In this document: positions 974 through 22,683 of the stretch, piece by piece
Layout of the letters: the number at the start of each line of letters is the position of its first letter
Position numbering within the stretch: the stretch's first letter is position 1
NCBI RefSeq assembly: GCF_007559275.1
Contig: NZ_VMHK01000002.1
Span: forward strand, 62,001 to 126,000
Length of the DNA stretch: 64,000 nt
From: Bifidobacterium apousia
Lineage (GTDB): Bacteria; Actinomycetota; Actinomycetes; Actinomycetales; Bifidobacteriaceae
Direction of reading: 5' to 3'
The notes under the pieces: generated by a model
The model's input: the letters and a program-made list of their open reading frames with translations, nothing else
Database searches by the model: none
Told to the model about the DNA's origin: nothing
Made by a program: the position numbers and the translations under genes

Positions 974-3900
974 TTAGCCCAGGTCAGCATCCTGATCCCT
1001 GCGATGCCGAAGCATGCACATCAGTGCCAGGCCGAGGACGGCAGTGCCGATAGCCAGCGCTACAGGCATGACTATGTCTGAGCCTGAGGCGGCTAGGGCT
1101 TGGGAATCTGCAGATGGCTTTGCTTGGTCATCAGAAGATTGGTTTCCTGCTGCCGGTTTTTGGCTATTGGAACTGGTTTGATCTGGTTTGTTGGATGCAT
1201 GATCGGACTCGCTCGGCTTGTTCGGCTTGTTTGGTTCTACCGGCGGATTTGGCTTGTCACGTCCTCCAGAGTTGCCAGAGTCGTCGGGGTTATCCGGCTT
1301 GGCCTGGTAGGTGTTGGTGAAGGTGGTGTCCTTGCTGGTGATGGTGGCTTGGAGCTGGCCTTGCTGGTCGTCGGTGACGTGGACGTCGACCGTGGCCGTG
1401 TGCCGGTCGTAGGTGATGCCGGGCAGGCTGCCCTGGTCCTCGCGGATGGTGTAGTGGTAGTCGCCGGGCTGGTCCAAGGTCAGGTCGTTGAAGACGATCC
1501 TGCCCTGGGCGTCGTTGGATGCCGAGCCCGCTTCATGGCCGGTCTCCCCGTCGTACAGGTGGAAGGTGAACTCGTTGGCCTTCAGGTCCCGGCCCTGCAG
1601 GTGCTTGGTGGCGGTGATGACGGGCTTGGCCGGCTTGGCCTGGTATGTGTTGGTGAAGGTGGGGTTGTTGCCGTCGATGGTGGCTTGGAGCTGGCCTTGC
1701 TGGTCGTCGGTGACGTGGACGGTGATCCGGTGCGTCTTCTGGTCGTAGGTGATGCCGGGCAGGCTGCCCTGGTCCTCGCTCACGGAGTACGTGTAGTCGC
1801 CGGCCTCGGTCAGGGTCTGGTCGGGGAATGCGACGGCCCCGTCGGCCTTGTTGGATGCCTGGGCGAGCTGCTTGCCGTCCTTGGACAGTTGGAAGCTGAA
1901 CTCATTGTCTTTCAGGTTTCGGCCTTGCAGGTGCTTGGTGGCGATGAGGTTCACCGTGGCCGGCTGGGCCTTGTAGTGGTTGGTGAAGACCGCCGTGTCT
2001 ATTTTGTTGCCCTTGCTGTCAGTCCATTGCGCCTTGGCGGTACGGTGCAACTGAGCCGCATCGGTCGTCAAAGTGATGGTCAGGATTGCAGTGCTCTGAT
2101 CATACGTCAGGCCAGGAATGGAGCCGGTTTCCTGGTGTATGCGATACTTGTAGCTGCCATCGTCGGGCAGAGCATACACATTGACGGGCACCTGGGAATC
2201 TTGATTATTGGCATTTACGATGATTCGGCTAAGCAGGGCTGCAGAGGGTGCACCATGCAAGGGTTCGACAGTCAGTGCGAAGGAGTCTGAGTTGAGCCAG
2301 TTCCTGCCTTGAATCTGTACTTTGACTCCTGCAGACACTTCATTGGTGTCCATTGGTCCTGTCAAGCCACAGTTGTTGAAATTCAGGGATTGGCTGGCTG
2401 CGTCCACCATATCCTCGGCCTTCTGGAACTTAATATCCTTGATGACGGCGCCGTTCATGGTTCCGTTCTCCAGTATGTCGCTGGCTGAGGAGTTTTCGCT
2501 CGGGCTGGCTCCGCTGGCCTTTTGGATTGTCGTAGACAGGTGGGTCCAGTTCGTATTCGGAGCGGGGTCGAACCGCAGGTGGAATTGCCCTGCCGGTATA
2601 TTGGTCAGTTCGTACTTGCCCTGGGAATCAGATTTTGTGCTCAGATCATCATGTGGGGTGACGACCGACTTGGCGGGCTTGTCGTCAGAATCATTGAGCA
2701 GGGTCACTTTGACATTTTTAAGCAGAATATCTTCCGAAGAGCGGGTGCCGTCCCCATTGACGTCGTACCATACGATGCCACTGATGGAACGTTGAACAAC
2801 CATGGCCTGGGCAGGCATTTGGTTCAGTGCATTGCCCCAGCGATTCCGATAGAGGTCGCCGGAGGAGTTGTTTCCGGGGTTTATATGGAAAGTAATGTCA
2901 TAGCGGAATTGGTCGGGCTGCCCATCGATGATGAAGGCCCAGGCGACCACGTTTTCAGGCATTTTCACTTCGCCACTTGTTGTGTCCAAGTCAGCCTTGT
3001 CCCAAGAGAGGTATTCCTGGGATTGTATGGAACTCGTGTCATTCACCCGCCATCGAGAATCTGTGGTGTAGCGGATGGTGATTCGGCTCAGACTAGCCCC
3101 CGCCGAAGCTTTTATGCTCATATCGGCAAAAGTGGGTTCCCCGTGGAAGTCGGGTTTGCCGCTTGTCTGTTTGTACGGCATGATGTCGATGGCATAGTGA
3201 TGTTGCTTGCCGCTGCCTGAGGTGCTGCTCAGCATGTTGGTGAAGCCGATTGGTGCACCGGCTTCATTCGTATCCTGTACGGCCGAAGTGGAAAGGCTGG
3301 TGGTGTTGGTCCGCCAAGCGTGGATAGTGAAGGAGTCGGCAGTCTTCAAGTATGTGTTGGGCTGGGACATATTCTGTTTTGACTGAACTGTGGCAGAGGT
3401 CGTCAGGTCTTCGTTGGAGCCGATGTCTTTGCTAGGGTCAGTCAGGTCACCCAGGGAGGTGGAGAAGTGGATGACGCGGTTGTTGCCGTCCACAGGGATG
3501 TTCGTCAGTGTCCAGGACAGAGTGGTGATTCCGGTTACGGAGTCCGTGCTCACTGATGGCTCACAGGCGGTTCCGCCCTCTATGTGGCCCATTTCAGGCG
3601 TGGCTTCCGTATATGTGCCACCCAATCGGGCGCTGCCGGGGATGTAGTGGAGCTTTGCCGGTAGTTTGTCGGTGATGTAGAGTTCAGTTTTGGCGCCCTT
3701 GTTGGCTTGGGAAGCTGATGTGCCGGTGTTGATGGTTAGCCGCCAGTCAACGAACCGTTGATCGCTGTCTATGTCAAAGTATTCTTTGGGTTTGGAATTG
3801 GTGCTTTTTTGTGCCACGGCGTTGGAGATGGTGTTGGTTTCGCCGGCTACATAGAGGCTGTCCCCGTGTTCATTGCCGCCGGTGTCTCCGCCCAGGTAAC

Positions 3901-6412
3901 CGTTTATTTGGTCATAGCTGGCCTTGGTATAGCCTCCGACCGACGTGGCTAAGACGGGGGGTTTGGCTTTGGCCAGTTCGTAGGGGTTCTGTTGCTTGGC
4001 CCAGTCCTCCCATTCCTGATCGCTGGAGTTCTCGGGGCTTAGCCCGGCCATAGCTGCTAATTGGCTGCGGGTGAAAGTGCGTGAAACTGATGTCAGCTGG
4101 GCTACCGAACCTACTTTGGCATCGGGGAGGACGTTGATCACAAATCCGCCGAAGCCGAATCGGGAATTCTCTTCGGCAAAACTGGTGGGCGCGGCGGTGT
4201 GCCCGCCCAGCAGCATGCCTACAACCGTGCCATGCTTCTTTGCATCCTCCTGCGTGCTATAAAAGTTCAGATCCTCTATGTCGGCATTGGCTTGCTCAGT
4301 GTCGTTTTTCCAGTCCTTTCCGTCGGGTTTGGTGGCGTACATGACCAGTTCCTGTGATGGGTTTTGATCGCTCGTTCGCTCGTATTTATCGTATTTGCTG
4401 TTCTGCCAGATGCCATTGACCCAAGGAATATCCAGACCTGCGGGGTCTGGCAGTCTAACGACCTTTGGGTCGATCTTGACCAAGGACATTCCCAGCAGAG
4501 GCAGATCGGCCTTGCTGGTTTTGAAGTTGAAGCCGGCCGTTACCCGCACTTTGGTCCCTGCGACTGCTGAGTCGGTCCCCCGTAGGTTGTCAGGAGCATT
4601 CCACCACCCGCAGTCCACGCCGTCATCAAAATAGTTAGGAGCCGTCATACAACTGTACTGAATGATGTTGCTGATGCCTGCCTTTATTGTGCTGGAGCCT
4701 AGCGTGAAGATGACGTTATGCCACATGTCATCGGACTGGTCGGTTTGGTTTGACGTGTCCGTGGGGCCGGTGGCAGGGGGTAAAGACTGGTTTGATAGCG
4801 ATTTCGCACTCAGGTTGCCGTCGTCGACCTTGCTCTGCAGGCTGAGGCCGGTCTGTCCATAGTAGTTGGCCACGTCCTTGCCGTCGACAGTGGAGGGGTT
4901 GAAGACATATAGGTAACCAGTGGAGATTTCGGCCACTTCTTGTCGCGTGCAGTCAGTCGAGGCCAGGGCAGGCGTGCACTTGGCGCCTGGTGCATAGGTG
5001 TGTCCCAGGTAGGGGAAGGGGTCGTTGGTTTTATAGTCCTTCAAAGTCAGGTCCAGCCTGAGGCCCTGGCTGTTCCGCTGTTCAGCCACGGTGTATTGAC
5101 CATTGCCTTGGACTTGGTCCTTCCCGGCCGTGCCACCCGTGGATCGGGCATAGCCATAGTTGCTGAGAGTGGGTCTCCAGCCCTGATCACCGGTGTTGCG
5201 TCCGCTGTTGTTGAAGTCGCCGTCGATGGTGCCGATGTCCCAGAAGTAGGGTTGCAGATCCGCTATCTTCGGGTAGGCATCTCCGCCAGCGGTCTGCCAC
5301 AAATTGCTCAGTGACAGGGAAAAGGTAATGGGGCCAGTGGGAACCTCCAGACCCTTGAGACCCTTGGTTCGATCGGGCCAACGCATGTCAACGGCCCAGT
5401 TGAACTTGCTGATGATCCCCTTGCGCTTACCCAGCTCATGGTTGGGGTAATTGCTGGCGGCTGGGGTGTTGAAGTCGAAGGTTTGGTTGCCGGAGCCTTC
5501 ATTGGTTCCGCCAGTGATTCGCAGGTTCAGATTGAGCTTGGCTGATACGGTGACCGGATCGGACGTGGCCGAAGCAGGATCGGTCTTGGTGACAGTATCC
5601 GGAGCGCCCCAGGCCTGGATTTCGGGGGCGAATTTGCTGCCATTGGCCATGCTTCGGACCCGGAGGACCAGAGTGACGCTGGAGGATCCCGGAATAACGG
5701 TAGACAAAGTCGGTGTTGCGGTGAGTAGCCTGTAAACGGTAAGCACCTGTGTCGGATGACCGTCGATGGTCTCTGTGGTTTGCTTTGGCTGGTACCCCGG
5801 CGTATTGTCCACCCAGCCCATGGAATCCACATCAAAGGTGACCTGGTCTTCAGGCTGGCTCAGTTTGAATTGGAAGCCTATTCGGCCCCGGCGGTAACTG
5901 GTTGTCTCGTTGCGGGTATTTACGGCGAAAGAGTAGGTGTAGGACAACTTATCGAAAGTGCGCACTATGTCATTGTCCGCATCGTGGTCATTGCCGGGGT
6001 TGTTGTCGTTGTCGAAAGGAGCCGTGCCGGTGGAGCGTGAGGCCTGGGACAGTGTGGTGACCACGGCGTCGTCGGTGTCCAGCATGTCCTTGATGACCGA
6101 TCTGGTGGTCGGCTTTCTGCTGGGTTGTACGGGCGCGGCCTGGTTCGAGGCGGTTGACTTCGACTGCTGAGTGGTTTGGGCTGCCTCGGATGCGGCGGTG
6201 TCTAACTGCGGAGTCGAGGTCTGGATCGATGTGGACGATGCCTGGTTTGTGGCAGTCGCTTGCTGTGCATGTGCCGTTGGAGATGTCGACGTGGAGGCCG
6301 TGGTCCGGGCATCCGCTGTTTGCCCGCCATCAGCCAAGGCCATAGTGGGTATCAACATGGCCATAGTCATCAGGCCGGCCAGGACTTTTCCGCTCAAATT
6401 ACCCTTTGCCAC
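974..6412 (-). CDS. Large cell-wall-anchored surface protein with pilin-type isopeptide domains, 1812 aa
   Basis: This is a secreted, wall-anchored adhesin-like protein. The GTG start at 6412 follows AAAAGGAGAAAC. Residues 1-27 form a signal peptide (MAKGNLSGKV..., probable cleavage after ALA). A Ser/Thr/Gln-rich linker follows, then a long beta-rich region up to about residue 1200. An SdrD_B/Cna-B-like unit (GIVWYDVNGDG) lies at about 1205-1280. Three tandem streptococcal-pilin-type isopeptide domains lie at about 1367-1482, 1490-1590 and 1596-1704; the last two share the pattern TKHLQGR.L..NEF, EDQGSLPGITYD and FTNTYQAKP. A Pro/Ser/Asn-rich wall-spanning stretch leads to LAASG at 1773-1777, a hydrophobic helix (about 1781-1799) and the basic tail RHRRD. 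The anchor motif differs from LPXTG. No sortase or second pilin subunit lies nearby, so a single adhesin is more likely than a pilus operon. Binding target unknown. Confidence 0.85.
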   Translation of the reverse strand: MAKGNLSGKVLAGLMTMAMLIPTMALADGGQTADARTTASTSTSPTAHAQQATATNQASSTSIQTSTPQLDTAASEAAQTTQQSKSTASNQAAPVQPSRKPTTRSVIKDMLDTDDAVVTTLSQASRSTGTAPFDNDNNPGNDHDADNDIVRTFDKLSYTYSFAVNTRNETTSYRRGRIGFQFKLSQPEDQVTFDVDSMGWVDNTPGYQPKQTTETIDGHPTQVLTVYRLLTATPTLSTVIPGSSSVTLVLRVRSMANGSKFAPEIQAWGAPDTVTKTDPASATSDPVTVSAKLNLNLRITGGTNEGSGNQTFDFNTPAASNYPNHELGKRKGIISKFNWAVDMRWPDRTKGLKGLEVPTGPITFSLSLSNLWQTAGGDAYPKIADLQPYFWDIGTIDGDFNNSGRNTGDQGWRPTLSNYGYARSTGGTAGKDQVQGNGQYTVAEQRNSQGLRLDLTLKDYKTNDPFPYLGHTYAPGAKCTPALASTDCTRQEVAEISTGYLYVFNPSTVDGKDVANYYGQTGLSLQSKVDDGNLSAKSLSNQSLPPATGPTDTSNQTDQSDDMWHNVIFTLGSSTIKAGISNIIQYSCMTAPNYFDDGVDCGWWNAPDNLRGTDSAVAGTKVRVTAGFNFKTSKADLPLLGMSLVKIDPKVVRLPDPAGLDIPWVNGIWQNSKYDKYERTSDQNPSQELVMYATKPDGKDWKNDTEQANADIEDLNFYSTQEDAKKHGTVVGMLLGGHTAAPTSFAEENSRFGFGGFVINVLPDAKVGSVAQLTSVSRTFTRSQLAAMAGLSPENSSDQEWEDWAKQQNPYELAKAKPPVLATSVGGYTKASYDQINGYLGGDTGGNEHGDSLYVAGETNTISNAVAQKSTNSKPKEYFDIDSDQRFVDWRLTINTGTSASQANKGAKTELYITDKLPAKLHYIPGSARLGGTYTEATPEMGHIEGGTACEPSVSTDSVTGITTLSWTLTNIPVDGNNRVIHFSTSLGDLTDPSKDIGSNEDLTTSATVQSKQNMSQPNTYLKTADSFTIHAWRTNTTSLSTSAVQDTNEAGAPIGFTNMLSSTSGSGKQHHYAIDIMPYKQTSGKPDFHGEPTFADMSIKASAGASLSRITIRYTTDSRWRVNDTSSIQSQEYLSWDKADLDTTSGEVKMPENVVAWAFIIDGQPDQFRYDITFHINPGNNSSGDLYRNRWGNALNQMPAQAMVVQRSISGIVWYDVNGDGTRSSEDILLKNVKVTLLNDSDDKPAKSVVTPHDDLSTKSDSQGKYELTNIPAGQFHLRFDPAPNTNWTHLSTTIQKASGASPSENSSASDILENGTMNGAVIKDIKFQKAEDMVDAASQSLNFNNCGLTGPMDTNEVSAGVKVQIQGRNWLNSDSFALTVEPLHGAPSAALLSRIIVNANNQDSQVPVNVYALPDDGSYKYRIHQETGSIPGLTYDQSTAILTITLTTDAAQLHRTAKAQWTDSKGNKIDTAVFTNHYKAQPATVNLIATKHLQGRNLKDNEFSFQLSKDGKQLAQASNKADGAVAFPDQTLTEAGDYTYSVSEDQGSLPGITYDQKTHRITVHVTDDQQGQLQATIDGNNPTFTNTYQAKPAKPVITATKHLQGRDLKANEFTFHLYDGETGHEAGSASNDAQGRIVFNDLTLDQPGDYHYTIREDQGSLPGITYDRHTATVDVHVTDDQQGQLQATITSKDTTFTNTYQAKPDNPDDSGNSGGRDKPNPPVEPNKPNKPSESDHASNKPDQTSSNSQKPAAGNQSSDDQAKPSADSQALAASGSDIVMPVALAIGTAVLGLALMCMLRHRRDQDADLG
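1294..1965 (-). repeat. Tandem ~336-bp coding repeat in the surface-protein gene
   Basis: Bases 1294-1629 and 1630-1965 are two adjacent copies of a repeat of about 336 bp (112 residues) encoding the last two isopeptide domains. Stretches such as GGCTTGGAGCTGGCCTTGC and GGTGATGCCGGGCAGGCTG recur at the same phase. Similarity is strong at the DNA level, which suggests recent duplication or ongoing gene conversion. Confidence 0.75.
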
Positions 6413-10654: not shown

Positions 10655-11506
10655 TCAGTAATTACCGTTTTGACGGCGGTACTGTATAGGAGTCATGCCT
10701 ACTTGATGTTTGAAAGTGTTGCACAGGATCGATATCGAGGAGAATCCGCACTGTTTGCGGATTTCGTCCAGGGAAAGATTGCTGTTGACGAGTAGGAACT
10801 TGGCCACATCAACACGTGAAGCCGTGATATATGCGTGAGGTGTCAGTCCTGTCTGTTTTTTGAAGATACGAATGAAGTGGTATTCGCTCATATATGCCCG
10901 TTCGGCCAGTGAGCTCACCGTTAGTGACTGATCGAGATTATCGGCGATGTATGCTATCGAGTCATCGATAGTACGTGAGCGCTTTGCTGTGACTCCAGGC
11001 TTGTTCTCTACAGCAAATTCCGTAAGCAGATCGGTAATATGACGAGCCATCTCCGGTTCGGAGTATCCACCTTGATCCGTCGCCATATCGTGGATCTCAC
11101 GCAACTGAGTCCGCGCATACGAAGGGTTGCGAAGGCTAATTACGTTTCCAAGCTTAGCTGTGATCAAATCATAATAGGGCCGCGCAGTTATTCCGTCGAA
11201 ATGCATCCACAGTACGTCCGTTTCAGTGTCAGTCCCATAACAATGACGGGAATAGCAGTCAACGAGAACGAATTGATCAGCCACGGCCCGTAAATGACCT
11301 GTAGGCAGATCCAAATCCATGGATCCTGAGAGCACTAGCATGACGAGAAAACTGTCAAAGGAACGGCGATCAAGGCGATAGCCGGGCTGGTAGCTGAACA
11401 GGCCAGATCTGAGCAGATAAAGAAATGTACGCCGGGCTGTGGCCGAAGGAATTCGCATGACGAAGTCCGACTTGGCCAAGTCGATGAAGTGCTCGGCGGG
11501 TTTCAT
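10655..11506 (-). CDS. AraC family transcriptional regulator, 283 aa
   Basis: A two-domain sugar-type regulator. The N-terminal half (about 20-160) is a cupin-like sensing domain with the family pattern PGYRLDRRSFDSFLVMLVLSG and VLVDCYSRHCYG. The C-terminal part (about 185-280) holds two helix-turn-helix units: SLTVSSLAERAYMSEYHFIRIFKK and SLDEIRKQCGFSSISILCNTFK, ending in the signature GMTPIQYRR. The ATG at 11506 follows AGAGGAACAGTAATC. It lies downstream of, and in the same direction as, the DUF5107-galM-sugar porter genes, 133 bases after the porter stop, so it probably controls that group on binding a sugar-derived ligand. It could instead be a relic partner of the decayed MFS gene that follows it. 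Confidence 0.88.
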   Translation of the reverse strand: MKPAEHFIDLAKSDFVMRIPSATARRTFLYLLRSGLFSYQPGYRLDRRSFDSFLVMLVLSGSMDLDLPTGHLRAVADQFVLVDCYSRHCYGTDTETDVLWMHFDGITARPYYDLITAKLGNVISLRNPSYARTQLREIHDMATDQGGYSEPEMARHITDLLTEFAVENKPGVTAKRSRTIDDSIAYIADNLDQSLTVSSLAERAYMSEYHFIRIFKKQTGLTPHAYITASRVDVAKFLLVNSNLSLDEIRKQCGFSSISILCNTFKHQVGMTPIQYRRQNGNY

Positions 11507-11639
11507 GATTACTGTTCCTCTTTGTCCATATTCCTTAACGATAGGCTATAAGTCTGGTTCTTAAGTGGGTAAGGATGATGGCAGGAACCGTATGGCATGA
11601 CCCCTGCCATCATCAAAATGCCCGTGTAGGGTCCCAGTT

Positions 11640-13079
11640 TCAGTTCTCGCTCATGTCTTCTAGCGCCACGCCGCTGGTTTCAGGCAGGGCCTTGGTGACC
11701 AGAAGGAAACCTACTACGCCGAAAAGGGCGAAGATCACATAGGACCAGCCCAGGCCAATCCCGTCACGCATGGAAGGGAACACCCAGTTGCAGGCGGCTG
11801 AAGCTATCCAGCAGAAGAATGTTGCCACTGACACTCCTATGGCGCGAATGGAGTTTGGCAGCACTTCGGAGATGACGACCCACATGCCAGGTGCCCAGGT
11901 CGCGGAATAGCAGAACCAGAATACATTGGCTACGATCAGCAGGAACCAGGCCCAGCCTGTGGTCACGTTCACTTCACCGTTGACCACTTTGCCGGTGAAG
12001 AACCCTACGGCCATAAGAGCCAGACCAATGGTCATGGTTACGGAGCCAATCGTCAGCAGCTTGCGCCGACCGATCTTGTCGATGTAGGCCATGCCGATCA
12101 TGGTTGCAATCAGGGCAAAGATCGTGCGAATGAACGACATGTGCAATGCGCTTTGCTCGGAGAATCCGACCATCTGCCACATGGACGAATCGTAGAACAT
12201 GATAACATTCGTCCCTTGGAGCTGCTGTAGCATGGCTACTCCGATTGCCACCCACATAACCTTGCGCAATCCGAAGCAATCGCCCCTCAGATCAGACAAG
12301 CGTGCCGGACGTTCGAGCATGGTTCCACGTATTTCCTGAACCTTGTCGTCGGGATCGGGCTCGCCTGTGATTTCGGAGAGGATAGTCCTGGCCTTCTCGT
12401 TCTGCCCTTTCATCACCAGATATCTCGGGGACTCCGGGAGCATCAGTGCCACCACGAACATAAGTATGCCCGGCAGAGCCATAGTCATCAGCATCCATCG
12501 CCAAGCCGCCAGACCCAGCCACCAGGTCTTTTCGGCACCGCCTGCGCCCATGGCATACAGATCATTGAGGCCTAAAGCTGCAATTTGTCCAAGAACGATG
12601 GCGAACTGTTGCATGGAACCTAGCATGCCGCGCAGATTCTGAGGAGCGATCTCCGAGATGTACGAAGGGCCGATGACAGAGGTAAAGCCGACTCCGATTC
12701 CTCCTAGGAATCTGAATATGAAGAACACCCAAACGTTGCTTGTCAGGCCCGATACCAGGGCGCAGGCCACGAACAGTATGGATGCGCCGATAAGAACCTT
12801 GGTGCGACCGTAGCGATCGGCGAGTTTGCCGGCAAACCAAGCTCCTACAGCGCAGCCGACAAGTGCCGATGAAACCGTGAATCCGGACATGAAGCCTGTG
12901 ACGCCGAATCCGGAATCCGGACTGGTCAGTGCCTTGACGGCGCTGTTGATGACGGATGTGTCGTAGCCGAACATGAATCCGCCGACGGCAGCGGCTGCAC
13001 AAACGATAATGAGTTTGATCCTATTGCCGTTGGATAAGCCTTTTGCCGGCGGTTTGCCGGTTTTAGTTGGATGAGACAT
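11640..13079 (-). CDS. Sugar porter (MFS, XylE/GalP-like), 479 aa
   Basis: A proton-linked monosaccharide transporter of the sugar porter family in the cell membrane, with 12 predicted helices. Family motifs are visible: FGYDTSVINSA in helix 1, the loop DRYGRTKVLIGA, RFLGGIGVGFTSVIGPSYISEIAP, the PESPRYLVMKG signature after helix 6, QQLQGTNVIMFYDSSMW in helix 7, and the second-half loop DKIGRRKLL. The start at 13079 has only a weak site (GAAAGAAG). It is the third gene of a row with the DUF5107/TPR protein and aldose 1-epimerase, 42 bases after the epimerase stop, so it probably imports the sugar the unit acts on. Closest in type to hexose/xylose symporters; the substrate is not fixed by sequence. 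Confidence 0.9.
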   Translation of the reverse strand: MSHPTKTGKPPAKGLSNGNRIKLIIVCAAAAVGGFMFGYDTSVINSAVKALTSPDSGFGVTGFMSGFTVSSALVGCAVGAWFAGKLADRYGRTKVLIGASILFVACALVSGLTSNVWVFFIFRFLGGIGVGFTSVIGPSYISEIAPQNLRGMLGSMQQFAIVLGQIAALGLNDLYAMGAGGAEKTWWLGLAAWRWMLMTMALPGILMFVVALMLPESPRYLVMKGQNEKARTILSEITGEPDPDDKVQEIRGTMLERPARLSDLRGDCFGLRKVMWVAIGVAMLQQLQGTNVIMFYDSSMWQMVGFSEQSALHMSFIRTIFALIATMIGMAYIDKIGRRKLLTIGSVTMTIGLALMAVGFFTGKVVNGEVNVTTGWAWFLLIVANVFWFCYSATWAPGMWVVISEVLPNSIRAIGVSVATFFCWIASAACNWVFPSMRDGIGLGWSYVIFALFGVVGFLLVTKALPETSGVALEDMSEN

Positions 13080-13121
13080 GTGAGAAACTTCTTTCTATGT
13101 TGTTGACGGATCGCTGTTGTT

Positions 13122-14180
13122 TCAGGAGATGATGCTCGTTCGGTAGCAGATTCTGGCGGTAAAAATGTCGCCTGCTCTCAAGATGGGTTTTATGGGGTCG
13201 TCGCTGTTGATGGCGTTGGGTACAAATTCGCACTCAAGCGCTATGCCTTCCCTGGGCCCATAGCAGTGGCCATCCCTAGCTCGGGTGTTACTCAGATAGT
13301 CACCGGTGTACATCTGGATTGCGGGTAGATCGGAAAAGACGTCGAGCCGAATGCCGGTCTTCGCGCTGGCTAGTGTGGCCATATGGCCGAACTCACGGGG
13401 GCTTTTGTTGATCGGGTAGGCATGGTTGTAGCCGTGTCCAAGCCTGATCTGATCGAAAGCCGGATCGCGCCGCTCACTGATGCTGCAGGGTTTCCTGAAA
13501 TCCATCGGAGTACCGGCCATGGCCTGTCGAGAGCCTGTTGGTATGGCATCCTCACTGAGGATCGGGCAGAACGTATCTGCATTTATCTGCAGTGTGTGAT
13601 CCAGAATATTGCCAGATTCGTCGCCGTCCAGATTGAAGTAGGCATGATTGGTGAGATTGCATATGGTGTCTGCATCCGTGGTGCCTTCGAAGGTTATTTC
13701 GAGTCCGTCATCCTGAAGTCTGTAGCATACCGTGATCGACATGGCTCCTGGAAAGCCTTGATCGCCGTCTGGGGTATCCATCCTCAAGGTGACATGCCGG
13801 TCATCGTACGAATCAGTCGTCCAAAGTCGGTGCTCGTAACCGTCAGGACCGCTGTGGTTGTTATTCTTGCCGTCGTTCGCTGCTAATCGGTATGTGCGTC
13901 CATTCAGCTGGAACTGAGCATTGGATATCCTGTTGGCATTGCGTCCGATGGTGGCGCCCAGACAACAGGCGTCAGCGCAATAGCTCGCTAAATCCGGGCA
14001 TCCCAGGACTATTTGCCTAAGTTCTCCTGCACTGTCCGGGGTGAGGAAAGAGACAAGCCGCGCTCCGTAATCGGTGATTGTTGCCGATTGCCCCTGTCCA
14101 TTCCGGAGCTTGAACAGGTGTGCGGCTCTATCATCGTCTAATCTGCCGAATTCGTCGGTAGACATGTCCGTTGTCTTCAT
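13122..14180 (-). CDS. galM: Aldose 1-epimerase (mutarotase), 352 aa
   Basis: Interconverts alpha and beta anomers of aldoses in the cytosol. Seen in order: an N-terminal strand region ITDYGARLVSF, the GATIGRNANRI motif, NHSGPDGYEHRLW, the catalytic-histidine segment LTNHAYFNLDGDESGNILDHTLQI, and the C-terminal motifs IQMYTGDYLS and ALECEFVPNAIN with the catalytic glutamate. Length is normal for GalM. The ATG at 14180 overlaps the TGA of the upstream DUF5107 gene (ATGA), so the two are translationally coupled. With a sugar porter next, it would speed use of an imported sugar. The symbol is by family; galactose is not proven to be the substrate. Confidence 0.9.
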   Translation of the reverse strand: MKTTDMSTDEFGRLDDDRAAHLFKLRNGQGQSATITDYGARLVSFLTPDSAGELRQIVLGCPDLASYCADACCLGATIGRNANRISNAQFQLNGRTYRLAANDGKNNNHSGPDGYEHRLWTTDSYDDRHVTLRMDTPDGDQGFPGAMSITVCYRLQDDGLEITFEGTTDADTICNLTNHAYFNLDGDESGNILDHTLQINADTFCPILSEDAIPTGSRQAMAGTPMDFRKPCSISERRDPAFDQIRLGHGYNHAYPINKSPREFGHMATLASAKTGIRLDVFSDLPAIQMYTGDYLSNTRARDGHCYGPREGIALECEFVPNAINSDDPIKPILRAGDIFTARICYRTSIIS

Positions 14181-17100
14181 GCTGTCGCCTTAGTTGCAGC
14201 GGAACTGTTCATCAATATATGCCGATGGGAGAGTTCGTCGCTAAATAGGTTGACCTGGATGTGGCTGGGATCTTCGGACATAGCCTTGGCAAGCAGATCC
14301 GACGCCTTTTGTGCCTTCCCCAATCCGATATTGGCTAAGGCCATGACATACAAGCAATGAATATGGTTCATTCTTGTGTAATCTTTGTCATAGATTACGA
14401 AGTCAGGAAGGGATACTGCGAAGTATTCTATAGCTGCTTGATCGTTCAGATGCTGTTCGCCGAAGTCCAGCAGGCGGTAGAACCTGGCATTGGCAGGTCC
14501 GTGTTCACCCAGTGCAGCATGAGCTAGGCCCTGGTATAGGATCATTTCTGCAGGCTGATCGTTATAGAACATTGCACCCTTGACTTCGTCGGGTCCGATG
14601 GTTGCTTGACGGAATTGGGCTTTTGCCGCATCATCATGGCCCATGTGTGCCTCGATCAGGCCTAAGAGATAATGCAGATCGTTGTCTTTCTGTCCTTCGA
14701 GCTTGCCCTCGCCCAGATTTTCTGGATAGGACTGGGCCTTGGTCAGTAGATCCTTAGCTGTTTGCCAGTCTTGGGCATTCATTGCATCCTTTGCCATAAG
14801 CGTCAGGCTGATGCGGTATTGGGCTGTGATCTTTCCTTCTCCGCCTTCCCAAGGGTGGAAATGCCGTTTACCCATCAATTCATAGGCTTCGCGATAGTTA
14901 CCGGTCATGTTGAGCACTGTCAGATACTCGATGTACAAGTCATCGCGCTCTTGAACGGCGTTGAGATTGCGGCGGTATTCGACCAGACGCTGGCTGTAGG
15001 TCCATCCAAGCATCCGGCGGAGTTGATCCAGCTCCAGGAAAATGCTGGAATCCGTTGGATCGAGGCTGAAGGCCTTTTCCATCTGCTCCAGGGCACCGGC
15101 TTCATCATGTCGCTTGTTATAGTATGCCAAGGATAAGTTGCGGTGGACGGTGGGGAAGTTCGGATCGTTTCGAGCGCTGGTCTGCCACAGCTCGATAGCC
15201 CTGTCTGATTGGAGCTTGTCGTAATAAAGGCATCCCAGATAATAAGGTGCCTTGGCGTTGGCGCCCATCTTCATCGCAGTCTGAAGGACCTGAATATCGT
15301 CCAAGGTGTTGGGGAAGCAGCAGTAGCTGTCGTCTTCTTCGCCTTTCAGGATCGCTTCTTTGGCTTGGTCGGGATGATTCATGGCTGCCAGGTAATAGCC
15401 TTTGTAGTAATCCAGCATCGGATCCTGGCCTTTGGCTTGGTTCAGCATGGCCAGGGCTTCATCGTAGGCTCCGAACGATGCGTATTCGCGAGCTGCCTTG
15501 ATATGGTTCTTCGTGACTCCCCGGGTAAGGTCCAAGTCGCGTATGTTGCTTGTGCTCAGGTAGTGTTCATAACGTGAGACGAAGTCAAATGCGTCCAAGG
15601 CGAGGTTCTTCTCCACCTGGCTGGCGGCCTCGTCAGTTCGGCCCAATTTACGCAACAAGTAGGCTTTGAGCCCTCTAGCCCTGATGTTCTCGGAGTTCTT
15701 CACCAGGCTTCTATTGACGAAGTCCAAGGATTGAGACCAGTCGCCGCGGCGTGCGCTGATTGCGGCGAGATAGAAGAAGCCCATTTCTTGCTGGGAATCA
15801 TCCCAGGTCGACTTGTAAAAGGCATCGTATGCCTGATCTTCCAGTCCCAGATACCAATTGGCCAAGCCGAGATTGAAGTATGGTTCTGAATCATAGGGGT
15901 TGGGGTTACGGCTGGTTATGCGATCGATGGCCTTTTGGAAATGTTCCTTTGCTTTTTCGAATACACCACGTCGTAGCAGAAGCAGGCCATAGGCATTGTT
16001 GATCCTGGCATCGCCGGGGTCACGTTGCAGTCCTTCCAGATAGTAGGGATCGGGACGATATGTGGCATGGCGGTATTGTTCGAGATGGGTGCCGATTAGG
16101 AATAGCTCCTCATTGGTGGCGACATCGCTCGGTTTGGGTGCGGCTTTTGCGGGGCTGGGCAGTTTGTCGATAGTATCTGGTTCCGGAGTGTAAGAGACGA
16201 GTTCCTTGCCGGTGTCTTGGTCAGTGACCGATACGGTCATGTCTGTGGGAGCCGCCCCATGAGTGTCGAACTCTTCAGTGAGGATATTGACGGGGCTCAG
16301 TCGAGTGGTTCGTTCGAGTAGGGTCTCGCCTTTACGATTCGTGACCTTGACCAGACCATGGTCTACAAGGTGTGTGGCGTACACGGTTACCCGGCCCTGC
16401 CCATCCGACAAGCCGCTGCCATCGACGCCTTCGGTCTCTCCGGCGGCTTTCGCGGGATCAACAGGGCCAAACTCCATGTTCACAGCAGCGTCTAACGTAG
16501 CGTTTTTTACCAGACCGCAGGCCTTATATGGCATGAAATACTGGGTGAAGCGTTTGGTTTCGAAGGGTTTGAGCCAGCTGAAATCCGGCTGGTTGTCGGT
16601 GAATACACCGGTCATGAGTTCGGCATAGGGGCCATTGTCATCGGTCAGGTTCCGATCCCAGGCATGTCCAAAATCACCGCTACCCCAGACCCACTGCTTC
16701 TTGCCGGGACTGATGTGATGGTCGGCATAATGCAGGATGCCGGCTTGAGCTGCGTAATCGTATCCGCCAACGAAGTCGTACTTGCTTCCAGCGGCCATGT
16801 AGGAGGTGGGAACGGGGACGTTCTTGTACCTGCCGATGTCCACGCCTTCTGAATAGTCGTGCTTGTAATAAGTGCCCGTGGCGATAGGATATCTGCTCAC
16901 GTCACGTTTGCCGTGATCCATCACCGCTGTCACATCCGGAGGCATGACCGTCTTGGTATGGGCGTTGACGGATACGGCTGGGTTAGCCCACCAAAGGAAA
17001 GTCTGGGGAAGGCTTGTGCCATTGTAGAGATCTCCCGTGATGGCTATGTACGCCTTACCTGGATAAAGGGCGATTGTAGTGACGACCTCGGTGCCGTACA

Positions 17101-17566
17101 TCTGGTCGACATCGTGGCATTGGACTCCCTTGCCGCCATTGGCGAGATCGACAAGACGGTAATCGACTGGACTGAAAGTAGTGGGGCGATGGTGCTGAGG
17201 CCAGTTAAATTCGATGCCTCCCGAGATCCACGGTCCCGTAAGGCCGACCAGTGCAGGCTTTATGACATCGTTTCGGTAGACGAAATCGTACCCGTTGGTC
17301 TTATCCTGGGCATATTGGATTCTGCCCCCTAGCTCGGGGAGTACCGTTACCTTTATATATTCATTCTCAATGATGACAGCTTTGTATGACTTGTCTTCCT
17401 TGGTGTCTTTGATGGAAGTGATTACCGGGTATGGATAGACCTTGCCCGAGGATCCCTGATAGACGCGTTTTTCAATAAATTGAGGATTCTTATCCGGTTT
17501 GCCGACTCCGTAGGTGGGGATGACCAAGGTGGTGTCCGAAATTTTGACCTGTCCGGTTGATGACAT
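14177..17566 (-). CDS. DUF5107-domain protein with TPR array, 1129 aa
   Basis: A large, apparently cytosolic protein with no signal peptide or membrane segment. Residues about 40-340 look like the DUF5107 beta-sandwich (EYIKVTVLPELGGRIQYAQDKTNGYDFVYRNDVIKPALVG, GGIEFNWPQHHRPTTF), a fold related to galactose mutarotase. Residues about 480-1100 are a long TPR array, with repeats such as INNAYGLLLLRRGVFEKAKEHFQ, EPYFNLGLANWYLGLEDQAYDAF and VHRNLSLAYYNKRHDEAGALEQ. The ATG at 17566 follows AAAGGAGCAGGTA. It is the first gene of a row with galM and a sugar porter and overlaps galM by 4 bases. DUF5107 proteins have no settled biochemical role that I know of; a carbohydrate-binding or anomer-acting job is inferred from fold and context. 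Confidence 0.85.
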   Translation of the reverse strand: MSSTGQVKISDTTLVIPTYGVGKPDKNPQFIEKRVYQGSSGKVYPYPVITSIKDTKEDKSYKAVIIENEYIKVTVLPELGGRIQYAQDKTNGYDFVYRNDVIKPALVGLTGPWISGGIEFNWPQHHRPTTFSPVDYRLVDLANGGKGVQCHDVDQMYGTEVVTTIALYPGKAYIAITGDLYNGTSLPQTFLWWANPAVSVNAHTKTVMPPDVTAVMDHGKRDVSRYPIATGTYYKHDYSEGVDIGRYKNVPVPTSYMAAGSKYDFVGGYDYAAQAGILHYADHHISPGKKQWVWGSGDFGHAWDRNLTDDNGPYAELMTGVFTDNQPDFSWLKPFETKRFTQYFMPYKACGLVKNATLDAAVNMEFGPVDPAKAAGETEGVDGSGLSDGQGRVTVYATHLVDHGLVKVTNRKGETLLERTTRLSPVNILTEEFDTHGAAPTDMTVSVTDQDTGKELVSYTPEPDTIDKLPSPAKAAPKPSDVATNEELFLIGTHLEQYRHATYRPDPYYLEGLQRDPGDARINNAYGLLLLRRGVFEKAKEHFQKAIDRITSRNPNPYDSEPYFNLGLANWYLGLEDQAYDAFYKSTWDDSQQEMGFFYLAAISARRGDWSQSLDFVNRSLVKNSENIRARGLKAYLLRKLGRTDEAASQVEKNLALDAFDFVSRYEHYLSTSNIRDLDLTRGVTKNHIKAAREYASFGAYDEALAMLNQAKGQDPMLDYYKGYYLAAMNHPDQAKEAILKGEEDDSYCCFPNTLDDIQVLQTAMKMGANAKAPYYLGCLYYDKLQSDRAIELWQTSARNDPNFPTVHRNLSLAYYNKRHDEAGALEQMEKAFSLDPTDSSIFLELDQLRRMLGWTYSQRLVEYRRNLNAVQERDDLYIEYLTVLNMTGNYREAYELMGKRHFHPWEGGEGKITAQYRISLTLMAKDAMNAQDWQTAKDLLTKAQSYPENLGEGKLEGQKDNDLHYLLGLIEAHMGHDDAAKAQFRQATIGPDEVKGAMFYNDQPAEMILYQGLAHAALGEHGPANARFYRLLDFGEQHLNDQAAIEYFAVSLPDFVIYDKDYTRMNHIHCLYVMALANIGLGKAQKASDLLAKAMSEDPSHIQVNLFSDELSHRHILMNSSAATKATA

Positions 17567-17873
17567 TACCTGCTCCTTTGTCTTTTAAGGTTATGTCTGG
17601 GGGAGTCGAGCGGCCCGAAGCAGCTCCGATGCTGTCTCCTTACGTCTCACACTAAGGCTGGATATTTGGGTTGCGACCAGTAAAATTGTCCTCTTATTTC
17701 GGATTCTTGCTCTTACAAGGAGGATTTGTGGCCTCGCGCCGGTTCGGTCTGTCGATTCTGAAATCACAGACTCTGATAGGTAAGTCACATGTGGCCCACT
17801 TTTAACTTGCACTTCCAGCGGCTCGAGGTTGTACCATCAGGCCGATTGAAGATCAAGGAAAGGTGGGACTGCT
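17567..17873. other. Divergent promoter region between the DUF5107 operon and an SDR gene
   Basis: This 307-base stretch holds the start signals of both divergent genes. No confident -35/-10 pair or long palindrome was seen. It is the natural place to look for sites of the AraC regulator encoded at 10655-11506. Confidence 0.4.
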
Positions 17874-20409: not shown

Positions 20410-22683
20410 TTATGATCGCACTGCTGCATCCTTGATAAAGTCAAAATAGGCATTCATGGCTCGGGCTGTGGGAGTGTCATTGCGGCGCATCAGTGCAAGC
20501 GGAGCCCCTTCAAACAGCACCTTGCCTCCATCGTTTCCAGCTCCTGGACCCATGTCGATTACCCAGTCGGCCTGACCTATGAAGCGCAGGTTATGTTCTA
20601 TGGCGATGACAGTAAGACCTTTGTTGGCGATGAGGCTACGCAAGAGGGCAATCTGCTGCAGGATGTTGGATTCATGCAGGCCGCTGGTAGGCTCGTCCAA
20701 AATCATGGTCTCATGCATTCCTTCCTTGAGCAGTTTGGCCAGTTTGAGGCGTTGCAGCTCACCGCCCGAGAGCGTATCGAGGGCCTGCCCAATGGACAGG
20801 TAGGACAGCCCGACATCCTCCAGGGCCTGCATAGCTGGTCCCAGCGCCTCACAATATTGGTGCATGGCCTCGCTGGCAGTCAGTTTCAGCACCTGGGCGA
20901 TGTTGAGACCGCGGTATCTGGCGGACAGAGCCTGCGTTGAATACCTGGTTCCGTGGCAGCTTTCGCAGACAGTGCTGGTATCACCCATGTAAGCAATATC
21001 CAGGGTGACGACTCCCTTGCCCTTGCAAACCGGACAGGCTCCAGCAGCGTTGAATGAGAAGAGTGAGGGGGAATTACCTGTAGCCTTGGCGAAGGCTTTG
21101 CGCAGCTGGTCGAAGACGCCCAAGTAGGTCAGCAAGTTGGAACGTCCGCTGGCCTTGATCGGCTTCTGATCCAGGAGTATGGCATCATGCTGAGCCATGA
21201 AGCCTTCCTTGATCAGGGTGCTCTTACCTGAGCCGGCCACTCCGGTCACCACAGTCAGCATATGCCTAGGTATCTTGGCGCGGGCTTCTCTGACGTTGTG
21301 GGCAGTGACCTTGTCTATTGCATAGAAGCCTTGTGCAGGCGCTGCCGGTTCGTTTACTATGCCTGGATCTGACAGGGCTCTGCCCGTGGCTGTGCCGCTT
21401 TCCAACAGAGACCGGTGGTCCCCCTCGAAGACGATCTGTCCGCCTTCCGTGCCTGCTCCTGGCCCCATATCGACGATATGGTCGGCGATGGCGATGAGTT
21501 CAGGGTCATGATCCACGATTACCACCGTATTGCCCTTGTCCCGCAAACCTTTGAAGATTTTCCTGATCCCGGTCAGGTCATGGGGGTGCAAACCAACACT
21601 GGGTTCGTCGAAGATGTAGAGCACGTCATTCAAGGGGCTGTTCAGACAGTTGGCGATTTTCAGACGCTGCGCCTCTCCTCCGGAAAGCGTAGATGTGTCG
21701 CGCTCCAGGCTCAAGTAGCCCAGCCCAACCGTTATCAGGTTGGCTATCTTGCGTTTCAGGTCCTGCAGAATGGTCTCGGCCTGATTGTCGTGAATCTTCC
21801 CGAGCCAGTCCTGCAGGTCGGTCACGCTCATGGCGGAGCAGTCAGCTAAGTTCAGTCCGGCGATCCTTGCTGAGCGGACCTTGGCGTTGACTCTGGTCCC
21901 CTGGCAGTCGGGGCACCGGGTGATTCGTGTAACCTCCTCCAGCTCATGCTGGTATTTGCCATTGCTCTGGTTGATGAAGGTCTTGGTGATTCGGGGCACC
22001 AATCCTTCATACATGGCCGTCTTGTGCCAGCTGGGGCCAGGGTGTGCCGGTTTTTGCTTCTTGCCATAGAGCAGGAGGTCAAGGTCGCTGCTGGTCCACT
22101 CCCGTAGGGGCAGATCGTTGTCAAAGTAGCCTGAATCCGTATATCTGGTCAGTCTCCAGCCGCCCGGCTGAAAGGTGGGAAAATTGATGGCTCCCTGGTT
22201 CAGCGAGAGACCCATGTTCAGCAGGCGATCAAGCACCAGACTGCGTACAGTTCCCAGGCCCTGGCAGGTCGGACACATCCCCGCAGGATTGTTGAAGGAA
22301 TACATCATAGAGTAACCGATGAAGGGCTGGGCCATGCGGGAAAACAGCAGGCGTAGGGCAGTATAGATATCGGTGTAGGTGCCCACGGTTGAGCGGGCAT
22401 TGCCTGAGAGCTGCTTCTGGGTTACGACAATGGAGAAGGGCAGGTTGTCGATGCGCGCGACTTCCGCAGGCTCATACTTGGGCATGAGCTGCTGAATGTA
22501 GGAGCTGTAGCTGCGGTTGATCATGCGCTGTGACTCGGCTGCCAGCGTGGAAAACACGAGAGACGACTTTTCTGAACCCGACAGGCCGGTGACCACGGTG
22601 ATGGCCCGCTTTGGTATGGCCAGCGAGACTTGCTTGAGGTTGTGCGTGGAGGCCCGATCAATAAGAATGCACTCGGTCTTCAT
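20410..22683 (-). CDS. UvrA-like ABC ATPase (resistance type), 757 aa
   Basis: A soluble twin-cassette ATPase related to UvrA but shorter than the roughly 950 residues of true UvrA, matching the UvrA-like proteins linked with drug resistance. Seen in order: a first Walker A that reads GLSGSEKSS (33-41), a zinc-type CPTCQGLG motif, CPDCQGTR, signature LSGGEAQRLKIA, Walker B VLYIFDEPSVGLHP, a second Walker A GVAGSGKST, CPVCKGKG, signature LSGGELQRLKLA and TMILDEPTSGLH. Glu38 replaces the invariant glycine of the first P-loop. The gene starts inside the stop of a MarR gene (ATGA overlap), so the pair forms an operon that MarR probably represses. A role in nucleotide excision repair is less likely. 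Confidence 0.88.
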   Translation of the reverse strand: MKTECILIDRASTHNLKQVSLAIPKRAITVVTGLSGSEKSSLVFSTLAAESQRMINRSYSSYIQQLMPKYEPAEVARIDNLPFSIVVTQKQLSGNARSTVGTYTDIYTALRLLFSRMAQPFIGYSMMYSFNNPAGMCPTCQGLGTVRSLVLDRLLNMGLSLNQGAINFPTFQPGGWRLTRYTDSGYFDNDLPLREWTSSDLDLLLYGKKQKPAHPGPSWHKTAMYEGLVPRITKTFINQSNGKYQHELEEVTRITRCPDCQGTRVNAKVRSARIAGLNLADCSAMSVTDLQDWLGKIHDNQAETILQDLKRKIANLITVGLGYLSLERDTSTLSGGEAQRLKIANCLNSPLNDVLYIFDEPSVGLHPHDLTGIRKIFKGLRDKGNTVVIVDHDPELIAIADHIVDMGPGAGTEGGQIVFEGDHRSLLESGTATGRALSDPGIVNEPAAPAQGFYAIDKVTAHNVREARAKIPRHMLTVVTGVAGSGKSTLIKEGFMAQHDAILLDQKPIKASGRSNLLTYLGVFDQLRKAFAKATGNSPSLFSFNAAGACPVCKGKGVVTLDIAYMGDTSTVCESCHGTRYSTQALSARYRGLNIAQVLKLTASEAMHQYCEALGPAMQALEDVGLSYLSIGQALDTLSGGELQRLKLAKLLKEGMHETMILDEPTSGLHESNILQQIALLRSLIANKGLTVIAIEHNLRFIGQADWVIDMGPGAGNDGGKVLFEGAPLALMRRNDTPTARAMNAYFDFIKDAAVRS

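Follow-up and report, generated by a model that had tools for sequence, protein, structure and literature searches.

Organization of the locus

The window, which is the whole stretch of 64,000 nucleotides that was analysed, holds a unit of four genes coding for a DUF5107-TPR protein, a GalM-type aldose 1-epimerase, a sugar porter and an AraC-family regulator (Table 1). The gene content and the span of 10655-17566 are as the first-pass annotation had placed them, and the Pfam matches agree. The first two genes, which it described as translationally coupled, do overlap: the start of galM lies over the last 4 nt of the DUF5107-TPR gene.

Table 1. Features of the unit, with positions in the window
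Feature	Position	Strand	Basis
DUF5107-TPR protein, YphG-like, 1129 aa	14177..17566	minus	PF17128 and several TPR models over cut-offs
DUF5107 domain, residues 42-343	16538..17443	minus	PF17128; coordinates computed from residues, in agreement with genome place C7:78538-79443
GalM-type aldose 1-epimerase, 352 aa	13122..14180	minus	Aldose_epim, E 3.4e-71
Sugar porter family MFS transporter, 479 aa	11640..13079	minus	Sugar_tr, E 1.1e-103
AraC-family regulator, 283 aa	10655..11506	minus	AraC family match
Intergenic region preceding the unit, presumed promoter and AraC site	17567..17873		Aligned, conserved in 4 genomes

The 1129-residue protein matches PF17128 with an E-value of 4.7e-54 and 183.9 bits, the cut-off being 24.4. 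It consists of a mutarotase-fold domain (residues ~42-347), a β domain (~388-460) and a TPR solenoid (~485-1128). It belongs to the YphG or long DUF5107-TPR family, taken here as proteins of about 1070-1160 residues with PF17128 over its cut-off followed by TPR.

The window GalM scores 240.5 bits against PF01263 (cut-off 27) and exceeds the cut-off of the PRK11055 subfamily (300.3 vs 240), while remaining below that of the TIGR02636 Leloir galM equivalog (299.6 vs 397.65). Its residues His109, His179 and Glu316 are kept and are invariant among 10 aligned relatives. Asn252 (GYN) occupies the position of Asp243 (GFD) of human GalM. In most of 10 aligned GalM relatives that adjoin DUF5107 genes, asparagine likewise replaces the GFD aspartate; judging from the sequences, these proteins possibly form a subfamily with altered sugar contacts. 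In two other loci, small proteins of one cluster (L124:13427-14377 and L105:3884-4852) are encoded directly downstream of the DUF5107-TPR gene, where they apparently replace GalM. The former matches DUF4432 and Aldose_epim just over the cut-offs, the latter matches DUF5107 alone, under the cut-off.

The porter passes the TIGR00879 cut-off (338.8 vs 237.8 bits). Its nearest solved relative is XylE (PDB 4ja3, E 9.9e-60), although its score against the XylE equivalog model lies below the cut-off (288.4 vs 608). The AraC protein carries its own ligand-binding domain and clusters by blastp with regulators found divergently upstream of DUF5107-TPR genes elsewhere. A promoter scan of the intergenic region gave no better result than shuffled sequences (9 vs 8.1), and promoters and terminators were found in about equal number in shuffled sequence. 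Elsewhere in the window, a 1812-residue protein (974-6412) resembles by eye a repeat-bearing surface adhesin, and a 757-residue protein (20410-22683) a UvrA-type double ABC ATPase.

The first-pass annotation had stated that no hydrolase or kinase is present and that the large protein might be the missing enzyme. The statement holds within the unit and fails for the genome, which encodes a galactokinase (galK, C7:276871), an adjoining galT-family match (C7:276278) and, outside the unit, two GH42 proteins. As these functions are encoded elsewhere, a missing enzyme need not be invoked, and this reading was dropped. A substitution of DUF5107 for the Leloir pathway was likewise rejected, since 39 of 40 genomes that carry the DUF5107 family also have GalK. 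Among the listed places, read by eye, galK and the long-form gene are more than 40 kb apart or on different contigs; in one genome (G454), ~7 kb separates galK from a DUF5107 gene of the short form.

Predicted structure of the DUF5107-TPR protein

None of the 13 Pfam families matched by the 1129-residue protein at E 0.001 is PF01263, and the comparison of narrow profiles of DUF5107 and GalM gave a null result. Structure was therefore used to compare the two. AlphaFold2 models were obtained for the full-length protein (70 aligned sequences, pLDDT 87.9, pTM 0.87) and for the domain alone (68 sequences, pLDDT 78.4). The full-length model superimposes on Bacillus subtilis GalM (PDB 3mwx) with a VIA Z-score of 23.0 and an r.m.s.d. 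of 3.0 over 265 residues, and on Escherichia coli YphB (3nre) with a Z-score of 20.5. The domain-alone model matches 3mwx with a Z-score of 21.7 and a Foldseek E-value of 3.7e-10. The DUF5107 domain is thus predicted to adopt the galactose-mutarotase fold, and its earlier description as mutarotase-like is borne out at the level of a predicted model. Across GalM-type aldose 1-epimerases (PF01263), Z-scores are about 18-23.

The best structural match is PDB 5cd6 (BDI_1685 of Parabacteroides distasonis), with a Z-score of 33.6 for the full length and 29.7 for the domain (r.m.s.d. 3.0). Like the window protein, 5cd6 contains a DUF5107 domain and, by its title, TPR; no function is given in the title. 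The chain of 575-580 residues implies a shorter TPR region than in the window protein.

Two more distant relationships were considered. By eye, the YeaD segment IRGGVPVCWPWFG is similar to the DUF5107 segment ISGGIEFNWPQHH. The DUF5107 motif ISGGIEFNWP resembles IRGGVPVCWP of YeaD; the arginine of RGG is a serine and the proline is Glu119 in DUF5107, and HTYF is kept in YeaD. YeaD is presumably of the hexose-6-phosphate mutarotase type. The domain also gave weak Foldseek matches to OpgD/OpgG of GH186 (8ip1, E 5.2e-5; 9e08, E 9.8e-5), with a low TM-score and no sequence likeness shown. These periplasmic glucan proteins were demonstrated to be beta-1,2-glucanases, as a passage of PMC10514313 states. 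They show that a fold loosely related to that of the DUF5107 domain can serve a glycosidase; as the matches are weak only, GH186 was rejected as the nearest enzyme of this domain.

The comparison of the two models bears on the position of the solenoid. Blocks 221-250 and 291-310 have a pLDDT 12-20 higher in the full-length than in the domain-alone model, while the shift averages 0.3 over residues 351-470. As this gain appears when the TPR is present, the TPR would pack on the pocket side of the DUF5107 domain in these models, although causes other than TPR contact are possible for the gain. In both models, the invariant loops 31-40, 111-130 and 321-330 are predicted with some of the lowest confidence.

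Conserved residues

We take His170 of GalM to be the catalytic acid and Glu304 the base. The active-site residues of GalM are Arg71, His96, His170, Asp243 and Glu304, as given in a passage of PMC5622589. In the DUF5107 proteins, E119, H125, H126, R127, N195 and E316 are invariant in all 94 long rows of the alignment, near-identical copies included. E119, H126 and E316 are also found in the 8 short or cut rows, and N195 in 7 of them. Mean conservation is 0.83 in the DUF5107 part, 0.54 in residues 348-470 and 0.63 in the TPR part. A broad-profile comparison with GalM, weak (Prob 57) though running end to end, pairs E316 with the catalytic glutamate, placing it at the Glu304 position. If the protein were a glycoside hydrolase, the invariant E119 and E316 would be candidates for its carboxylate pair. 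No histidine is found at the position of His170, which holds Asn195 by ungapped spacing (by eye) or Pro196 according to hhalign. As the position of the catalytic acid holds no histidine, classical mutarotation is unlikely.

A plain aldose 1-epimerase extended by TPR and redundant with GalM would agree with the same predicted fold and the retained glutamate. Only 19 of the 78 non-redundant groups of the long form have an epimerase-family gene within six called ORFs, and the DUF5107-TPR protein could replace GalM in the others. The missing His170 equivalent and the presence of GalM or YphB beside the DUF5107-TPR gene in some loci make this reading very improbable.

The absence of the histidine admits a second explanation, in which a degenerate mutarotase binds D-galactose without turnover, and the TPR signals to the AraC protein or tethers GalM or a glycosidase. 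By spacing, the residue at the His170 position is an invariant asparagine, and the H170N variant of Lactococcus lactis GalM was crystallized with galactose according to the title of PDB entry 1nsx, so that this change is compatible with galactose binding. The natural loss of His170, taken with this entry, makes a binding-only sensor a serious rival. Against it, the strict conservation of acidic and histidine residues is judged unusual for a sensor, and for the same reason catalysis is favoured.

Distribution and the E. coli yph operon

Within the genus, DUF5107 is found in 12 of 27 genomes, that of the window included, as 13 copies. Four have the gene order of the window, eight are overlapped by a gene for an 892-residue GH2 protein, and one (L037) is accompanied by an ABC sugar transporter and GH42. 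Of 26 further genomes of the genus included in the search, 3 show the gene order of the window, with a DUF5107 protein 97-99% identical, and the arrangement is therefore not due to chance. The 4-nt overlap of the DUF5107-TPR and GalM genes is found in 5 window-type loci (4 distinct genomes), and an overlap of the same length with the GH2 gene in 11 GH2-type loci (8 distinct genomes). The GH2-type locus (for example L026:4419-7097) occurs in eight genomes of the genus, its GH2 protein being related to exo-beta-1,4-galactosidase; one genome (G018) carries both types. The closest named record among the matches listed, from which very near records may be left out, is from Bifidobacterium mizhiense (98%).

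Across 84,980 species genomes, at least 594 relatives were confirmed, of which the best 80 were kept as loci. These belong to Bifidobacterium, Lachnospiraceae and other Clostridia, Paenibacillus and other Bacilli, Bacteroidetes and Spirochaetales. The aligned full-length relatives, 35-69% identical, come from Actinobacteria, Firmicutes, Bacteroidetes, Spirochaetes and E. coli. The domain was found in only 12 of 396 genomes sampled from the phylum of the window, 10 of the matches being over the cut-off. The genome of Parabacteroides goldsteinii that contains locus L106 (G447) has five DUF5107 matches, two of which score far higher on the Pfam model.

E. coli K-12 yphG (b2549) encodes the same DUF5107-TPR architecture with 39% identity to the window protein. 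Of 5426 E. coli genomes, 5369 contain yphG over at least 80% of its length. As in the window, in yphBCDEFG-yphH the genes for an aldose epimerase and for a sugar transporter are in the same strand run as yphG, and a regulator gene lies beside it. The components differ: the transporter is of the ABC type (yphDEF) instead of an MFS porter, the regulator yphH is of the NagC instead of the AraC type, the epimerase is of the YphB type, and a zinc dehydrogenase, YphC, is present that the window unit lacks. The first-pass annotation had proposed an undescribed carbohydrate system; given the same core in E. coli, the unit does not stand alone and is not entirely undescribed. The yph operon contains no glycosidase or known galactose enzyme, which speaks against galactose as its sugar.

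Among the openly licensed papers listed, no functional study of DUF5107, DUF4380, PF17128, 5cd6 or YphG/yph was found, and one could exist elsewhere; nor was anything found there on a mutarotase-like domain joined to TPR in connection with galactose. A passage of PMC8163842, on phagotrophic stramenopiles, gives DUF5107 as a domain whose function is unknown.

Genomic neighbourhood

Neighbouring ORFs were taken from a mechanical caller, whose clusters may include antisense ORFs, so that six called ORFs correspond to fewer real genes. Clusters were labelled by scanning one or a few representatives, not each member, with Pfam or NCBIfam; for the count over 78 groups, the labels of L037 (GH42) and L025 (GalM) were assigned by hand. 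Of the 78 non-redundant long-form groups, 64 have a gene for a sugar transporter, an epimerase or one of the listed glycosidases within six called ORFs, and the link between DUF5107 and sugar genes that had been suggested from the window thus extends beyond this genome. Within this distance, a transporter is present in 41 groups, an AraC-cluster gene in 49, an epimerase in the 19 mentioned above, and a glycosidase of GH2, GH35, GH36, GH42, GH53 or GH97 in 37, of which 24 have GH35, GH36, GH42 or GH53. The remaining 14 of the 78 groups have none of the listed neighbour types, several of them lying on short contigs.

The frequency of selected families near the long form was compared with background in whole genomes for 40 of the 80 loci; distances for GH35, GH36, GH43, GH3 and GalK were read by eye. 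In the expectation, fragments are counted as matches and a uniform placement is assumed. Nine of the 40 genomes have GH35 within 10 kb, for an expectation of 0.43 when each genome has one anchor or 0.50 when all 51 DUF5107 matches serve as anchors (Poisson 9e-10 and 3e-9). GH36 lies within this distance in 6 of 40 genomes, for 0.57 or 0.69 expected (3e-5 and 8e-5). For GH3, taken as a control, the matches listed (about 150 of 285) place a gene within 10 kb in a single one of the 40 genomes (G439), with ~0.7 expected. No GH43 was found within 10 kb among the 150 of 454 matches listed, which with 0.6 expected is no proof alone; GH43 is over four times as frequent as GH35. GH35 and GH36 are enriched beside the long form, and GH3 is at background. 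Of the other neighbours, 107 of 242 candidate ORFs were scanned and gave 3 GH3 and at most 1 GH43.

Further neighbours act on galactosides or galactose derivatives in individual loci. GH53 occurs in several loci by scanned representatives, some of the proteins having S-layer domains, and GH42 in one (L037). One such protein, of 1826 residues with a GH53 galactanase and S-layer homology (L097:3174-8654), is encoded two called genes from a DUF5107-TPR gene, and its blastp cluster has members in L111 and L113. The GH2 representative aligns over nearly its full length with the exo-beta-1,4-galactosidase model NF049890 (E 1e-152, 507 bits), under the cut-off of 1500. D-galactonate dehydratase is found over its cut-off in two loci, L095 and L058. 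The former further holds a short-chain dehydrogenase and an SMP-30 lactonase; the latter holds GH35, a KDPG-type aldolase that passes the TIGR01182 cut-off, and a KDG/KDGal-like kinase that scores below its cut-offs. By analogy, these gene sets resemble an oxidative galactose route, which we take to be that of De Ley and Doudoroff. A family of 677-residue proteins (L125:11405-13438; 4 members near DUF5107 genes) has no Pfam match.

Taken over these loci, the sugar of the DUF5107-TPR units is most likely D-galactose. As GH92 is found near the Phocaeicola locus L102, and GH97 and GH95 in other loci, galactose is not the sole possible sugar. The same three families, the 3 GH3 among 107 other scanned neighbours, and the many gut or Paenibacillus-type degraders among the hosts (for the best 80 of at least 594 relatives) would suit a link to plant or mucin glycans generally, galactose being merely common among their sugars. 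With GH3 at background in the matches listed, GH35 and GH36 enriched, GH43 matching at most 1 of 107 other scanned neighbours, and galactonate dehydratase in two loci indicating galactose itself, such a general link appears improbable. The association with galactose is claimed for the long form only, since two scanned neighbour clusters of the short DUF5107 proteins of large actinobacterial genomes are peptidases.

The neighbourhood also informs on the sensor described above. The frequency of AraC-cluster genes, which are divergent and within 600 nt of the DUF5107-TPR gene in 31 of 102 loci, agrees with signalling to a regulator, and accompanying differing catabolic routes (several GH families, an oxidative route) is what a sensor would do. 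Against a sensor, the regulator in E. coli is of the NagC and not of the AraC type, and the window AraC protein has the ligand-binding domain mentioned above. Altogether, binding without turnover is considered possible, though unlikely.

Proposed role

The preferred reading, to which we give a little less than an even chance, is that the unit is a D-galactose module in which the DUF5107-TPR protein is catalytic at the anomeric end of the sugar. As the company of the protein varies, with several glycosidases, an oxidative route, or Leloir genes elsewhere, its step would be at intracellular galactose itself. No signal peptide was seen by eye in 8 N-termini, and the protein is presumably cytoplasmic; it most likely acts on D-galactose or a short galactoside.

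In this module, the porter would import galactose as the monosaccharide, GalM would equilibrate its anomers, and the AraC protein would turn the unit on; galK, galT and GH42 from other loci would complete galactose use. D-galactose or a short galactoside would be bound in the pocket of the mutarotase-fold domain, over which the TPR solenoid would close. E316, at the Glu304 position, would be the base, and the role of the missing acid histidine would fall to a different invariant residue, for example E119 or H126. Galactose binding, capping by the TPR, catalysis and regulation are each what we infer from the comparisons above.

More broadly, and only tentatively, the DUF5107-TPR proteins, E. 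coli YphG included, may be a new family of cytoplasmic carbohydrate-active enzymes acting on galactose or galactosides in several phyla, in which E316 and either E119 or H126 form a rewired acid-base pair and the TPR completes the pocket; this wider proposal is more doubtful than the module itself. A catalytic domain with a TPR-closed pocket would, in our judgement, be unusual in sugar metabolism. The distribution suggests a galactose module shared by Bifidobacterium of the asteroides group (from the bee gut, according to titles), gut Firmicutes and Bacteroidetes. Present in nearly every complete E. coli genome, yphG lies in a core operon that is an orphan even in the best-studied of bacteria, and the tie to D-galactose makes its function answerable by a few growth and binding tests.
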